The position numbers and the translations under genes are program-made. The notes below the pieces were generated by a model. The model was not told the origin of the DNA, searched no databases, and worked only from the letters and a program-made list of their open reading frames with translations. Below, one piece after another: positions 5,678 to 27,855 of a DNA stretch of 64,000 nucleotides (positions are counted from its first letter, which is position 1; the number at the start of each line of letters is the position of its first letter). The DNA comes from Candidatus Zixiibacteriota bacterium (lineage in GTDB: Bacteria; Zixibacteria; MSB-5A5; GN15; FEB-12), in assembly GCA_022571985.1 (NCBI GenBank), contig JACZWU010000002.1:186001-250000 (forward strand). Direction: 5' to 3'.

Positions 5678-7984
5678 TTGACTTTGTCTGATTCTGAAAA
5701 AGATAAAAGTAACGACTCACAGCACAAACCCGGTTCTGTCCCAGAAGATAAAACGCATACGTTTCATGTGAGTGCAGGCGAGGGTAAGCTCTCTGCCAAT
5801 CACCCCAGGCAGATAGGCCCTTATACTATAAAGCGGGTGATAGCTTCTGGTGGTATGGGCACAGTCTTCGAAGCGCTTCAGGAAAATCCCCGCCGTCCGG
5901 TGGCTCTCAAAGTTATCAAGAGCAACCTGGCCAGTGAAAGCGCTATTTTGCGGCTTGAGCAGGAAGCTCAGATGCTGGCACGATTGCGTCATCCCGGTAT
6001 CGCGCAGATTTATGCTGCAGGTACCTACGATGACAGTGGTTCACAGACTCCGTATTTTGCAATGGAGTATATTCCTAACGCCAAAGGCATCACAGAATAT
6101 GCTAAAGACAAAAATCTCAATATTCGAGAAAAATTGGTTTTGTTTCTTCAGGTTGGCGATGCCGTACATCACGGGCATCAGCGCGGTATCGTACATCGTG
6201 ATCTCAAACCCTCGAACATACTCGTCGATTCAAACGGACATGTGAAAATAATAGATTTTGGAGTCGCCCGTGCCACCGATGCCGATATGAAACAAGTAGC
6301 TGCCCAGACCGACGTCGGGCAGATTCTTGGCACAGTACAATATATGAGTCCGGAACAGTTCGATGCCGATCCGCATGATATTGATACCCGCAGCGATGTC
6401 TATACTCTCGGATTAATTTTGTATGAATTGCTCTCTGGTTCTATGCCGTATGCTGTTGACTCTGACAAGATTTTTGATTTTGCAACCGAAGTGCGTGAAG
6501 GCAGGACAACGTCTCTCGGATCAAAAGACAGTTCGCTCAAAGGAGAACTTGAGTCGATCGTACACAAGGCTATACAAAGGGACCGGGAACTTCGTTATCA
6601 GTCGGCCTATGGACTGGCAGAAGATATCCGGCGGTATCTGGCAGGTGACGCAGTTGTCGCACGCCCTCCCGGATTGTCTTATCAGGTACAAGTATTTGCA
6701 CGAAAAAACAAACTGGTCATTGGTCTGATCGCCAGTGCCTTTGTCTTGCTAGTTGCCGGGGTTATTGTTACAACTTCGTTGCTATTTCAAGTGGACGAGG
6801 AACGCCAGAAAGCCGAACTCGCTTCGCAAAAAGCAACAGAAGGCCAGCAATTTCTCTCTGACGTGCTTACTGCATCCTTTCCGTATGGATACGGAGACAA
6901 AGTCACAGTACTGAACATATTAGAAAGAGCCAGCCAGAAGCTAAATGGAGCCTTTGCGGACGACCCCGAAATAGAGGCAGAACTTAGAAGATCATTGGGA
7001 CTTGCCTATGGCAAGATCGGACATTACCAAGAAGCTAAGCGGGAGTTTTTAACTGGTCTGGCCCTATGCAGAAAAAAATTCGGAGATACCCATGACCAGA
7101 CTCTGGAATTATTGGAGGAAATATCTCGCATTTATAGTGTTATTGGCGACAAAAAAGAGAAGTTAAGTGTTACAGAAGAAATCTATGGCGTATACTTGAA
7201 ACGCTATGGTGAAACAGATAGCAGGACATTGGAGCAAAAAGGCTATTTAGCTGGGGCTTTGGAGTTGAATGCTAATATTTCTAGTGCCAGACAAGCTTCA
7301 GAAGAAGCCTGGAGCGGACTAAAGCAAAATTTAGGAGCTGATTCTTCTGAGACGATATACGCACAATCACGGTATGCCTGGATATTGTTGAGATCCGGAT
7401 GGACCGACCAAGCCAGCGAGGTGGCCGGAGATGCATTGGCCAGTGCCGTCCGAGTATACGAAGATGATAATTGGGTAGTAATGAATGCTAAGAGCAGTCT
7501 TGCTGCTGTTTATATTGTACAAAATAAATTTGACTCGGCAAAAGCTATCTACGACAATCAGAAAATTCCCGATAAATTCGGAATAGAGCGCGTCTTTCAG
7601 GGAAGTTTTGACTTGGACAGCAAGCCTTTTCAATTACTCGTCTTTTTTGAAACATGGTGTCCGTTTTCACGCCAAACTATGGCGGACCTTGGCAAAGTGG
7701 ATCGCCAATACAACCAGCTTGGACTTAACATAACCGGCATGACGCAAGTGAATAAAAGTGCAATGGATGAAGGCGTCAATCCGTATCTTGATGAACTTGG
7801 GATAAAATTTGCAGTACTTAAAGAGAACGGTCGTTCCTGGAACTATTTCAATTGCGAGGGTACTCCTTCTTTGAGGCTTATCTACGACGACTACTTAATC
7901 TGGGAAGAGGGTTGGTTTACTTCACTTTCAACTCAAATGCTTGAGGCCATGGCTGAGGCGCAGAGCAGCGGGATTGATCACTGA
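5678..7984 (+). CDS. Ser/Thr protein kinase fused to TPR repeats and a thioredoxin-like domain
   Basis: 768 residues from a TTG at 5678 (GGGGG ribosome-binding site nearby). The Hanks-type kinase domain spans about 50-320: glycine loop ASGGMGTVFEAL, Lys78, HRD at 173-175, DFG at 193-195 and YMSPEQ in the activation segment. One transmembrane helix follows at 346-369, then TPR-like helices (about 400-620). The last 120 residues look like a thioredoxin/TlpA fold: FFETWCPFSR with Cys661 and Ser664, and a GTPS segment at the cis-proline position. The resolving cysteine of CxxC is Ser, so a disulfide-isomerase-like or sensing role is more likely than a reductase. This fusion is unusual. Confidence 0.85.
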   Translation: MTLSDSEKDKSNDSQHKPGSVPEDKTHTFHVSAGEGKLSANHPRQIGPYTIKRVIASGGMGTVFEALQENPRRPVALKVIKSNLASESAILRLEQEAQMLARLRHPGIAQIYAAGTYDDSGSQTPYFAMEYIPNAKGITEYAKDKNLNIREKLVLFLQVGDAVHHGHQRGIVHRDLKPSNILVDSNGHVKIIDFGVARATDADMKQVAAQTDVGQILGTVQYMSPEQFDADPHDIDTRSDVYTLGLILYELLSGSMPYAVDSDKIFDFATEVREGRTTSLGSKDSSLKGELESIVHKAIQRDRELRYQSAYGLAEDIRRYLAGDAVVARPPGLSYQVQVFARKNKLVIGLIASAFVLLVAGVIVTTSLLFQVDEERQKAELASQKATEGQQFLSDVLTASFPYGYGDKVTVLNILERASQKLNGAFADDPEIEAELRRSLGLAYGKIGHYQEAKREFLTGLALCRKKFGDTHDQTLELLEEISRIYSVIGDKKEKLSVTEEIYGVYLKRYGETDSRTLEQKGYLAGALELNANISSARQASEEAWSGLKQNLGADSSETIYAQSRYAWILLRSGWTDQASEVAGDALASAVRVYEDDNWVVMNAKSSLAAVYIVQNKFDSAKAIYDNQKIPDKFGIERVFQGSFDLDSKPFQLLVFFETWCPFSRQTMADLGKVDRQYNQLGLNITGMTQVNKSAMDEGVNPYLDELGIKFAVLKENGRSWNYFNCEGTPSLRLIYDDYLIWEEGWFTSLSTQMLEAMAEAQSSGIDH

Positions 7985-11096: not shown

Positions 11097-11656
11097 ATGG
11101 TCTCAATTCTGTCTTTATGGCTGCCGATTCTGGTGTCGGCCGTGTTTGTTTTCATAGTCAGTACCATAATCCACATGTTTTTGGGCTACCATAAGTCTGA
11201 TTTTGGCAAAGTGTCAAATGAAGACGAGGTGATGGAGACGCTCCGACGAAGAAGTATTAAACCCGGTGATTATTATGTTCCGCATGCTGGAAGTATGAAA
11301 GCAATGAGTTCGCCTGAGTATATCGAAAAGACGACGGCAGGTCCTGTAGCAATTATGTCGGTCATGCCCAGCGGACCACCCAATATGACCAAAATCTGAT
11401 ACAGTGGTTTCTTTACAGCATAGTAGTCAGCATAATAGCAGCATATGTAGCCGGGAGAGCACTTGGACCGGGATCTGCGTTTCTTGAAGTGTTTCGTTTT
11501 GCAGGTATAACTGCTTTTGTCGGTTATTCAATAGGGCTGCTTCAAAACTCTATCTGGTGGGGGCGGTCATGGTGTACGACATTCAAATCAATGTTTGACG
11601 GCTTACTTTATGCGCTGGTGACCGCTGGTGCTTTTGGCTGGCTGTGGCCGGCTTAA
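11097..11656 (+). pseudogene. Conserved inner-membrane protein split by a -1 frameshift
   Basis: The first 100 codons (ATG 11097) encode an N-terminal membrane helix and a soluble stretch ending in [11 protein letters not shown] before TGA 11397. Another frame, entered by adding one A to the AAAA run at 11391-11394, continues without a stop to TAA 11654-11656. It encodes [35 protein letters not shown] and [12 protein letters not shown]. Joined, the two parts give a protein of about 186 residues with about four membrane helices, which matches a family of uncharacterised bacterial membrane proteins I recall with the same order of motifs. A homopolymer slip explains everything: a sequencing error, a recent inactivation, or programmed slippage. 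Confidence 0.75.
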
Positions 11657-11761
11657 ATTTTAGTGAGTAGTTGTTCCCTCATATAGCTTGGTAAAGACGC
11701 TGTCGACCGCTTCCTATAGTTCAATCTTGTATCAGTCTGCGTCTAAAAGAGAATACTAATT

Positions 11762-11838: not shown

Positions 11839-12528
11839 ATGCAAAAGCATTCTATTGTGTGGATTTTTCAAGTATTGACAATTGCGGTTTTTGGGCTTGG
11901 CTGTACAACTCAGAAATTTGTGACCGAAAATGATAAGATCCCTGTGAGCTATGTTGATGCCGATGGTTCAAATAAATCCACCAAAGCCGACACACTTTGT
12001 AATCCCTTTCCGCATTTATTGATGGCCGATGGTCGCATTACGCTAAACGATCGTTGTCCAGTCCGCAAGGCAATTCTCAATAAGCGCTTGCCTGCTTTTT
12101 TCGTCAATGGTCGACCGCTGGGGTTTTGCTGAACGCCATGCCAGAAGGTCTTCGTGCAAGACCCAGCCAGATACATAAATGAGCTTGGAGTCAAACTAAC
12201 AGATTGCGTTGACCCTTCACGCTCGGCTATAGTCGACAGCAACTATATGGTAATGATTGGCTTTGAGACTTTCTTTTTTGCTGATTCAGCTAATATCTCA
12301 AGATTTCTGAACAATATTCCCCGCTACTCTGGCGGTATTACGGATCCAGTCTCAAAGGAGCGTTTTCTCCCCAACAGTAACTCCCCTAAATCTGAGTTTA
12401 TGGGCAGCACCTTCATATTTGCTTCAGAGTCAACACATGGAACTTTTGATGAAATGCCCTCAATGTATTATCTGCCAAACTATAAGATGCTGCCGAAAGA
12501 TTCCACAGCAGAAGAACCCATTTCTTAG
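11839..12528 (+). CDS. Candidate selenoprotein: lipoprotein with three YHS-like modules and an in-frame UGA
   Basis: One reading frame of 230 codons is interrupted only by TGA at 12130-12132 (codon 98). It starts with a lipoprotein signal (VFGLGC, Cys near 22). The first module has RCPVRKAI, then NGRPLGFC, TGA, TPCQKVFVQDPARYI. YHS-type domains have FCCxxC here, so the TGA replaces exactly the second Cys and gives a UxxC motif. Two further modules follow without cysteines (FETFFFAD...PRY and GSTFIFAS...PSMYY). Coding quality and family pattern continue intact after the TGA. A SECIS-like hairpin follows it. The alternative is a recent TGC/TGT-to-TGA nonsense mutation. The role is probably periplasmic metal or redox binding. 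SD AGGA precedes the ATG. Confidence 0.6.
12133..12158 (+). promoter_or_regulatory. Bacterial SECIS-like hairpin downstream of UGA
   Basis: TGC (12139-12141) pairs with GCA (12156-12158) and GAA (12144-12146) with TTC (12151-12153), enclosing a GGTC tetraloop at 12147-12150. E. coli fdhF SECIS has the same GGUC apical loop on a 3-bp upper stem. Here the loop starts 14 nt after the UGA (18 in fdhF), slightly nearer than the usual range. The internal CA/GU mismatch makes the stem modest. Confidence 0.5.
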
Positions 12529-12669: not shown

Positions 12670-14208
12670 ATGGATTTTAGAATTATAAATATTGTCGCCT
12701 TATCTGCATTTTTTTCTATTTCGGGAAGTAGTGCGCAGGAAACCTTTCAAATAACTTTTGGAGGCACGGGAGTAGACTATGGCTATGCGGTCAAGCAAAC
12801 ATCGGATAGCGGCTATATCGTGGCCGGGTATACGACTAGTTTTGGAGCAGGCAACCGGGATGTATATTTAATTCGCACAGACAAAAGTGGCAAGAAGCTA
12901 TGGTCAAAGACATATGGCGCGGGTAACATTGATTACGCCTGGACAATAGATCTTGCCGTTGATGGCGGTTTCATGATCGGTGCCCATTCCGGAAGTTTCG
13001 GAGCAGGCAGTCACGATATATATCTCATAAAGTGTGATTCCTTAGGGCTGGTAGATTGGACGAAGGTCTATGGAGGCGGTTCAGCAGACGGAGCATATTC
13101 TCTAGAGCAAACAACTGACGGAGGTTATATAGTGTCAGCTCATACCAGCAGCTTCGGAGCAGGCCAGCACGATGTTTATTTAATCAAAATCAATAATTCT
13201 GGTGATACGCTATGGACAAGGGCCTACGGTGGAACAAGCGGTGATTACCTGCGAGCTGTGCACCAGACGGATGACGGCGGATATATATTAGTTGCGGAAA
13301 CATTTAGTTTTGGTGCAGGATCAGCTGATGTTTATCTAATCAAAACAGATAGCATTGGCAAGGTGATGTGGACAAAAACTTACGGGGGAAGCTTTTCAGA
13401 TTACGGATACTCTGTTAAGCAGACTGTTGACGGGGGATTTATCATTGCCGGTTATACCAGTAGCTTCGGCGCCGGGCAATTCGATTTGTATGTAATAAAA
13501 ACGGATATGAACGGTAACGTGATCTGGTCTAAAACCTATGGGGGTACTTCATCAGATTACGGGCATTCTGTAATACAAACATTAGACAGCGGTTATGTTA
13601 TTTGTGGCTACACGCTCAGTTCTGGTATGGCAGCTCAAGTTTATTTAGTGAAGCTCGACTCAGACGGTAATCTGCTCTGGAGCAAGAGCTATGGCGGCTC
13701 GGGCAACGATTTTGGCTGGTCAGTTGAGCAGACAACGGACTCCGGTTTTGTTATTACCGGAAATACCGATAGTTTTGGGCGTGGCAACAGAGATGTTTAC
13801 TTAATAAAAACAGACAGATTTGGTAACAGTGGCTGCCATGAAGCGATCGCTGCTACTATCGTATCCGATGCGGCTACGATCACGGGCTCCACTCAAACGC
13901 TGGTTGATTCCGGCGCTTTTGTCAACAGCACGGCGACTATTATCGAAGACGTAGTTGCTGCCGACAGCTTATTACTGTGCGATAACTCAGTCTGCCTGAA
14001 TTGTGTGAGAGGGGACACCAATAATGACAATAATTTTAATATTTTAGATCTTACTTTTTTGGTAGATTTCATATTCCGGGGCGGACTGAAACCGGCATGC
14101 AGCAAAGAAGCTGATGTAAATAGTGATGAGATCCCTTCCAACATTCTCGATTTGACATTCATTGTTGATTTTATTTTCAGGGGCGGTCAAACACCGGCAC
14201 CGTGCTAG
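12670..14208 (+). CDS. Secreted seven-repeat propeller-like protein with C-terminal dockerin
   Basis: 512 residues with a short signal peptide (cleavage after about 22, GSSAQ). Seven tandem repeats of about 52 residues follow (about 30-395), each with the pattern YGG-x3-DYG-x2-V, QT-D-GGYI, SFGAG, DVYLIK, W-KTYG. Seven such units suggest one seven-bladed beta-propeller. The C-terminus is a type I dockerin: two calcium-loop segments, GDTNNDNNFNILDLTFLV and ADVNSDEIPSNILDLTFIV, each followed by DFIFRGG. Dockerins bind cohesins; none is in this window, so the partner is elsewhere or the domain acts as a surface-attachment module. The dockerin style is the main taxonomic clue of the window. Confidence 0.85.
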   Translation: MDFRIINIVALSAFFSISGSSAQETFQITFGGTGVDYGYAVKQTSDSGYIVAGYTTSFGAGNRDVYLIRTDKSGKKLWSKTYGAGNIDYAWTIDLAVDGGFMIGAHSGSFGAGSHDIYLIKCDSLGLVDWTKVYGGGSADGAYSLEQTTDGGYIVSAHTSSFGAGQHDVYLIKINNSGDTLWTRAYGGTSGDYLRAVHQTDDGGYILVAETFSFGAGSADVYLIKTDSIGKVMWTKTYGGSFSDYGYSVKQTVDGGFIIAGYTSSFGAGQFDLYVIKTDMNGNVIWSKTYGGTSSDYGHSVIQTLDSGYVICGYTLSSGMAAQVYLVKLDSDGNLLWSKSYGGSGNDFGWSVEQTTDSGFVITGNTDSFGRGNRDVYLIKTDRFGNSGCHEAIAATIVSDAATITGSTQTLVDSGAFVNSTATIIEDVVAADSLLLCDNSVCLNCVRGDTNNDNNFNILDLTFLVDFIFRGGLKPACSKEADVNSDEIPSNILDLTFIVDFIFRGGQTPAPC

Positions 14209-26766: not shown

Positions 26767-27855
26767 ATGTTCAAACTACTTGTTAAATATCTTATTCTTC
26801 TATCAGCATCGATCACGCTCGTTGCTCTTTTTACTTCGGCGCGAGTTGAGGCTGCAGCCTGTACCTACTGCCACCAGGAAATAGTTAACAGCGGTATAAC
26901 GGTTGAAGGGGAACCGTTTCATGTCGAGCATTTTATGTGCGCTAACTGTCTCAAGCCGATTGGTGAAGAAGATTTCTACAAAGATAATGGCCGGTATTTT
27001 GATCGAAACTGCTACGAGAATTTCATAACTGACAAATGTAAATATTGCATCGAACCGATTATCGGTAAGTATATTATTTTTGAATCAGAAATTTACCACC
27101 TGGCTTGCTTTGATGACCATATTGACAAAAAGTGCCTTGTCTGTAATGAATCGGCAGTTGGCGGCGGTTACATTGATATCAGAAAAAACGCAGTCTGCCG
27201 CAGGCACCTTGACGATGTTCTGGATTGTCATTCCTGTTTCAGTTATGTGTCGCCAGCTCTGGATGATGGCAGCAGACGTTACTCTGACGGCAGGGTGGTT
27301 TGCAGTAAATGTCTGGAGACAGCAGTCGAAGATGACAGCCAAGCTTTGACAATCATGGAAGAAGTAAAAGCAAAACTCGCAGGCGCAGGACTTGTAATTG
27401 ACCGGGAGTTCAAAATAACATTCGTTTCCATCCAGGAGCTTTCAAAACTAAGCTCGAGTTATCAGAGAGATCAATTGGGCGTAACCAGATTCAGAAAAAC
27501 CGAGATGCTGGCCGGACTTGTTTCTTTTCAGGATTTCGAGATTTTTATTTTATCAGGTCTGCCCCTGCCTCAGCTTAAAGCCGTACTGGCACATGAGCTG
27601 ATGCATGTCTGGCAGTTTGCTAATGCACCGAACCCACAGGATCTGCAGCTGTGCGAGGGGAGCTGCCAATACGCCGCATATTTTGTTCTTATGGACGACA
27701 ACTCCGAGGAAGGTCAGTTTTTTTCAAAGTTCATAGAACAGCACAAGGACTCCAACTATGGTGATGGCTTTAGATTTGTATTAGAAGAAGTAAACAGACG
27801 GGGTTTTAAACTCTGGCTCGAATACCTAAAGGAAAACAAAAACCCGCCCTGGTGA
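26767..27855 (+). CDS. Secreted LIM-domain/DA1-like zinc metallopeptidase
   Basis: 362 residues from ATG 26767 (a TTG four codons upstream is possible). Signal peptide about 1-28. Residues 30-200 are packed with Cys/His pairs: CTYC...FHVEHFMCANC, CKYC...YHLAC, CLVC, and a final CHSC...DGRVVCSKC, the LIM zinc-finger succession. The first LIM has His in place of one usual Cys. The C-terminal half has the peptidase motif AHELMHVWQ (His276, Glu277, His280) followed by LCEGSCQYAAYF. This order (LIM, linker, HExxH, EG-C) is that of plant DA1, a ubiquitin-activated peptidase. A secreted bacterial form must have another role. Confidence 0.85.
   Translation: MFKLLVKYLILLSASITLVALFTSARVEAAACTYCHQEIVNSGITVEGEPFHVEHFMCANCLKPIGEEDFYKDNGRYFDRNCYENFITDKCKYCIEPIIGKYIIFESEIYHLACFDDHIDKKCLVCNESAVGGGYIDIRKNAVCRRHLDDVLDCHSCFSYVSPALDDGSRRYSDGRVVCSKCLETAVEDDSQALTIMEEVKAKLAGAGLVIDREFKITFVSIQELSKLSSSYQRDQLGVTRFRKTEMLAGLVSFQDFEIFILSGLPLPQLKAVLAHELMHVWQFANAPNPQDLQLCEGSCQYAAYFVLMDDNSEEGQFFSKFIEQHKDSNYGDGFRFVLEEVNRRGFKLWLEYLKENKNPPW

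Follow-up and report, generated by a model that had tools for sequence, protein, structure and literature searches.

A probable selenoprotein family with selenocysteine in a YHS-type module, read from a Zixiibacteriota genome and found in at least seven phyla

We report a gene in a 64-kb stretch of DNA, called the window here, that very probably (about 95% by our estimate) encodes a genuine selenoprotein of the YHS type, with an in-frame UGA decoded as selenocysteine (Sec). This reading is supported by the Sec machinery of the host genome, by TGA at the same position in 29/29 homologues, by Cys at that position in YHS relatives, by a covarying hairpin and by a structural model with three modules. 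It is also probable, in our judgment, that the gene belongs to an undescribed Sec-only family that spans at least seven phyla and has its Sec inside a YHS/TRASH metal site (C-x23-C-U-x2-C), and that the hairpin dictates residues 103/109 and 104/108 as complementary codons. The features of the gene are as follows.

11839-12528 (+): predicted selenoprotein gene, 229 residues plus stop; signal peptide/lipobox, then three YHS-like modules
11839-11904 (+): predicted signal peptide with lipoprotein-type Cys22 (G-L-G-C, a weak box), from sequence reading
12046-12174 (+): YHS module 1, residues about 70-112, with N70, C73, C97, U98 and C101
12130-12132 (+): predicted Sec98 (UxxC), in-frame TGA, TGA in 29/29 homologues
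12147-12163 (+): putative SECIS hairpin GGUCUU-CGUGC-AAGACC, conserved and covarying
12147-12152, 12153-12157 and 12158-12163 (+): its stem GGUCUU, loop CGUGC and stem AAGACC
12226-12336 (+): YHS-like module 2, residues about 130-166, without ligand Cys
12337-12468 (+): YHS module 3, residues 167-210, Pfam YHS match, without ligand Cys

By sequence reading, the frame runs for 230 codons from the ATG at 11839 to a TAG at 12526-12528, preceded by AGGTAGGAATC, which resembles a ribosome-binding site, and its product is MQKHS...GFC-U-TPCQKVFVQDPARY...EEPIS. An earlier sequence-only reading of this DNA had placed a TGA at codon 98 within a frame that stays open beyond it, and this is what we found: the sole in-frame TGA lies at 12130-12132, with the expected family pattern GF-C-U-T-P-C-QKVFVQDPARY around it, although the codons that follow number 131 and not 132 as stated there. 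An ordinary ORF listing breaks the gene in two (11839-12132 and 12154-12528). In the window, at least 60 codons are likewise open on each side of five further TGA codons, at 27085 (-), 52055 (+), 55380 (+), 48947 (-) and 10327 (-); the codon-98 TGA has the longest open pair (97/131 codons), and this length alone is not extraordinary and does not decide the matter. What raises the codon above chance is its conservation, with TGA in all 29 homologues and protein similarity on both sides.

Elsewhere in the window, the region just upstream of the gene (11097-11660, +) contains an ORF at 11097-11399 that stops early and an adjacent frame that runs to about 11655, carries a membrane segment and looks conserved; it looks like a small membrane protein with a frameshift near 11390-11400, and its first part gave no Pfam match. 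A secreted repeat protein at 12670-14208 (+), also without a Pfam match, shows propeller-like repeats and, by eye, two C-terminal dockerin-like repeats. At 5678-7984 (+) lies a Ser/Thr protein kinase with TPRs, the C-terminal part of which is thioredoxin-like by look (FFETWCPFS), with no such domain found by Pfam. When the neighborhoods of the homologues were compared by all-against-all BLASTP, no conserved neighbor genes were detected within about 6-7 kb, the large clusters consisting only of the gene's own fragments or its antisense frames.

A search of 98 related genomes returned seven full-length matches, the window's own among them, with exactly one in-frame TGA in each. The seven-row alignment was then used to scan about 85,000 species genomes, yielding 24 loci, all with TGA at the codon-98 position, and a sample of 392 Planctomycetota genomes added two further homologues, again with TGA. 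The 29 distinct homologues come from Zixiibacteriota, Krumholzibacteriota, Planctomycetota, Eisenbacteria, Gemmatimonadota, Acidobacteriota and Deltaproteobacteria/Myxococcota. Because the two peptide patterns of the large scan either left out the Sec position or matched only Cys versions, the scan was not biased against Cys orthologues; nevertheless, no full-length Cys orthologue was found in the approximately 85,000 species genomes or in the 132 genomes of the window's phylum and the 392 of Planctomycetota, and since no close relative carries Cys, the family is Sec-only at the sensitivity of these searches. (In our protein alignments A1 and A4, C is written where U stands.) Exchange between Sec and Cys was seen only at the level of the domain: YHS proteins from Zixiibacteria and Planctomycetota that match module 1 alone read CPV...FCCxxC, and one Cys of this motif falls precisely where the family has Sec. 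The proposal that the UGA replaces the second Cys of FCCxxC is thus borne out by these smaller proteins at the domain level.

The family is rare and patchy, with carriers in 7/132 genomes of the window's phylum and 5/392 Planctomycetota, and neither plasmids nor phages gave a match to it. In the maximum-likelihood tree, Planctomycetota were grouped (100/99) and the rest was partly resolved. Since the phylum labels require 8 changes against a minimum of 7, the family looks old within its groups, with little indication of recent transfer; the exception is a near-identical pair from Eisenbacteria and Gemmatimonadota (L053/L055), which may be a matter of naming or binning.

The host genome (2.93 Mb, 97.6% complete, with Candidatus Zixiibacteriota as nearest named relatives) was searched for the genes of Sec insertion, and selA, selB, tRNA-Sec (selC) and selD were all present. 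SelB scored 342 bits against a cut-off of 242; the 458-residue gene directly upstream of selB we take to be selA from its sequence and position; tRNA-Sec scored 71 bits and has the anticodon TCA. SelD scored 390 bits and contains its own in-frame UGA within CAGUASK (L103, G000:C10:144517-145437), so that selD, as its sequence indicates, is itself a selenoprotein. Altogether, SelB, selA, tRNA-Sec and a UGA-containing selD indicate by sequence that Sec decoding is in use in this organism. Among carrier genomes, selB or a probable selB fragment was found in 20/25 and a high-scoring tRNA-Sec in 22/27; those without are mostly fragmented drafts, where absence means little. Across the 132 genomes of the phylum and the 392 Planctomycetota, presence of the family showed no contrast in Sec machinery between carriers and non-carriers, because nearly all genomes of the phylum have SelB (above cut-off in 113/132) and tRNA-Sec occurs in 57% of the Planctomycetota sampled (223/392, compared to 4/5 Planctomycetota carriers).

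We examined the RNA downstream of the UGA in an alignment of 27 sequences anchored six bases 5' of this codon. A common hairpin was found with its stem in columns 22-29/35-42 and the loop CGUGC, and 85.6% of the cells in the paired columns are able to pair. Its covariation score was 0.390 compared to a shuffled mean of 0.212, reached by 0/500 shuffles, and at most 0.116 in a slid-partner control; the shuffles leave relatedness in and the slid control keeps it, with the gap still large. Changes on both sides were present in 6/8 pairs, and RNAalifold independently predicted the inner six. Folding energy was unremarkable (z -0.33) and is not used as evidence. In the window, the stem begins 14 nt and the loop 20 nt from the UGA, which fits the bSECIS model as quoted in PMC13188914; there, the first or second loop position is a G, frequently with another G or a U after it, and the distance is 16-37 nt. 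The sequence-only reading had named a different hairpin, said to begin 7 nt past the UGA and to have GGUC as its apical loop. Its bases pair in part in the window; in the 27 sequences it showed no pair with changes on both sides and covariation equal to the shuffled level, and it was rejected in favor of 12147-12163.

Because the conserved hairpin sits in the coding frame, the residues that it encodes covary as well. Residues 104 and 108 change as complementary codons, namely V104/D108 (GTC/GAC), T/G (ACC/GGT) and A/S (GCT/AGC), and residues 103 and 109 occur as D103/V109 (GAC/GTN) or as K or G with P; the permutation tests applied to this covariation ignore phylogeny. The Phe105 codon is TTC in 29/29 homologues, for which the chance is about 1e-4 from own-gene usage.

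The protein was further analyzed by structure prediction and profile searches. An AlphaFold2 model built from 27 sequences (mean pLDDT 89.2, pTM 0.80) shows three strand-strand-helix-helix repeats (87-116, 137-164 and 184-210). Pfam YHS (PF04945) matches the window protein at 36.6 bits, above the gathering cut-off of 30.3, and 21/27 homologues at E 0.01. C73, C97, U98 and C101 are invariant in the 27-row alignment and are retained by module 1 alone among the three modules. In Foldseek/VIA-align comparisons with the PDB, nothing was found at E <= 0.001; the best rows, weak at Z 3-5 and mostly over module 3, were methane/toluene monooxygenase hydroxylases and ribosomal L24e-type chains, and toluene-4-monooxygenase contains a YHS domain (PMC4626032). 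A sequence search of the PDB matched the C-terminal part only, in a low-complexity-like manner. Inspection of the 27 N-termini by eye revealed, in 23, a hydrophobic stretch and then a Cys with G/A/S/T just before it, as in lipoproteins, the rest having by look a plain signal peptide or membrane anchor; by the criterion used ([LVI]-x-[GAS]-C after a hydrophobic stretch), the G-L-G-C box of the window protein is weak. Thus, of the earlier picture of Sec in a lipidated three-module YHS protein, Sec is upheld by the conserved TGA, the sel genes and the hairpin, and the three modules by the AlphaFold model, and lipidation is only probable.

We propose that the ribosome, with SelB and tRNA-Sec, would read the UGA at 12130-12132 as Sec, insertion being directed by the hairpin at 12147-12163, and that the product would be exported and probably lipid-anchored in the membrane. 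Of its three tandem modules, the first alone would hold the chalcogen ligands C73, C97, Sec98 and C101, with Sec98, the second residue of the FCCxxC form, as an additional group beside the ligand positions C73/C97/C101. On the basis of ligand conservation and predicted export, the likeliest role is that of an exported lipoprotein that would use C73/C97/Sec98/C101 to bind or redox-cycle a soft metal in the cell envelope. The metal might be Cu(I) or Hg(II), and Sec98 might tune the affinity or form a selenenyl-sulfide switch with Cys101, a proposal for which we consider the chances evenly balanced.

The main rival to this soft-metal role accepts the same selenoprotein and takes Sec as a purely redox center, a UxxC selenenyl-sulfide at a helix start of the thioredoxin type, with no metal and the YHS fold as scaffold. 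UxxC does sit just before helix 99-107 in the AlphaFold model, the ligands are lost from modules 2 and 3, and redox proteins make up most of the known selenoproteins (PMC13188914). However, C73 and C97 are also invariant in 27/27 aligned proteins, and a simple UxxC center would not need both. We regard a metal-free center as a real possibility, though one that we would not favor.

Other explanations dispute the decoding itself. From one genome alone, an error of sequencing, or decay of the gene through a nonsense mutation, could not have been told from a Sec codon; with the UGA common to 29 distinct homologues from independent assemblies, and with protein and RNA conserved on both sides of it, that reading is refuted. 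Decoding as an amino acid other than Sec, by general recoding or a suppressor tRNA, would also leave the frame open, as any residue would. Yet 11/27 of the homologous genes examined (about 40%) themselves stop at TGA, so UGA is still a stop in those genomes and wholesale recoding is excluded, as had been claimed from the window; in addition, the YHS relatives have Cys at this position and the host combines a full Sec machinery with a covarying SECIS-type hairpin, leaving non-Sec decoding exceedingly improbable. It is very unlikely, too, that the UGA serves as a regulated stop, the functional product being a truncated protein of 97 residues or two separate peptides. A candidate GTG start does lie past the UGA at 12154, and its position within the loop and stem of the conserved hairpin accounts for its conservation; moreover, conservation in frame continues beyond the UGA through C101 and modules 2 and 3, and truncation would lose the invariant C101. 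The reading as a Sec-containing YHS protein would extend by one family the 2026 list of prokaryotic selenoproteins, which has 119 families and subfamilies (PMC13188914). In this added family, Sec would sit next to the ligand positions of a YHS/TRASH metal site, and no Cys orthologue was found in the genomes searched; Cys homologues are said to exist for nearly all selenoproteins (PMC13188914). Annotation pipelines will split or truncate such genes at the UGA. The covariation of complementary codons clearly exemplifies a SECIS constraining the protein that it encodes, and with this family the contribution of selenium to the handling of metals in the cell envelope can be tested directly.

Among known systems, the SECIS of E. 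coli fdhF is a hairpin near the UGA with G-U in its apical loop. The window hairpin resembles it in lying soon after the UGA and in the G-U of the loop, but differs in stem and loop sequence (CGUGC) and in the 20 nt between UGA and loop, and the fdhF-like GGUC loop proposed earlier is not conserved in the family. NCBIfam release 20 (June 2026) holds one YHS selenoprotein family, NF041384 (YHS_seleno_dom), which likewise combines a YHS domain with Sec. The similarity is weak: the window protein (P0001) scores 13.8 bits, far under the 70-bit cut-off, the best E value among 27 members of the window family is 1.2e-5, and the match of the window protein lies in module 3 (residues 181-215), away from Sec. 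The Sec motifs also differ, GxU in NF041384 (PMC13188914) compared to FCUxPC here. None of the 119 listed families has the window motif together with this domain (PMC13188914), the FCUTPC motif was not found in the literature covered, and no passage there on YHS domains and selenoproteins describes it; since papers outside it could describe the family, we consider it likely, not certain, that it was undescribed until now. The small YHS proteins of Zixiibacteria (e.g., L027 and L029) align with module 1 over about 50-70 residues, with Cys at the Sec site, and are without the three-module, Sec-only architecture. The domain itself is held in common with YHS/TRASH proteins (PF04945) such as the YHS domains of Cu-ATPases, the Mycobacterium phlei adenylyl cyclase and ribosomal L24e. 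The proposed ligands of the cyclase are D178, C181, C204 and C208 (PMC4626032), and C73-x23-C97-x3-C101 of the window protein matches its D-x2-C-x22-C-x3-C; from this spacing, we read C73, C97 and C101 as probably the three Cys ligand positions of YHS/TRASH. Compared to these proteins, the window family has three tandem modules, two of them ligand-free, with N70 in place of the Asp and Sec directly after the second ligand Cys.
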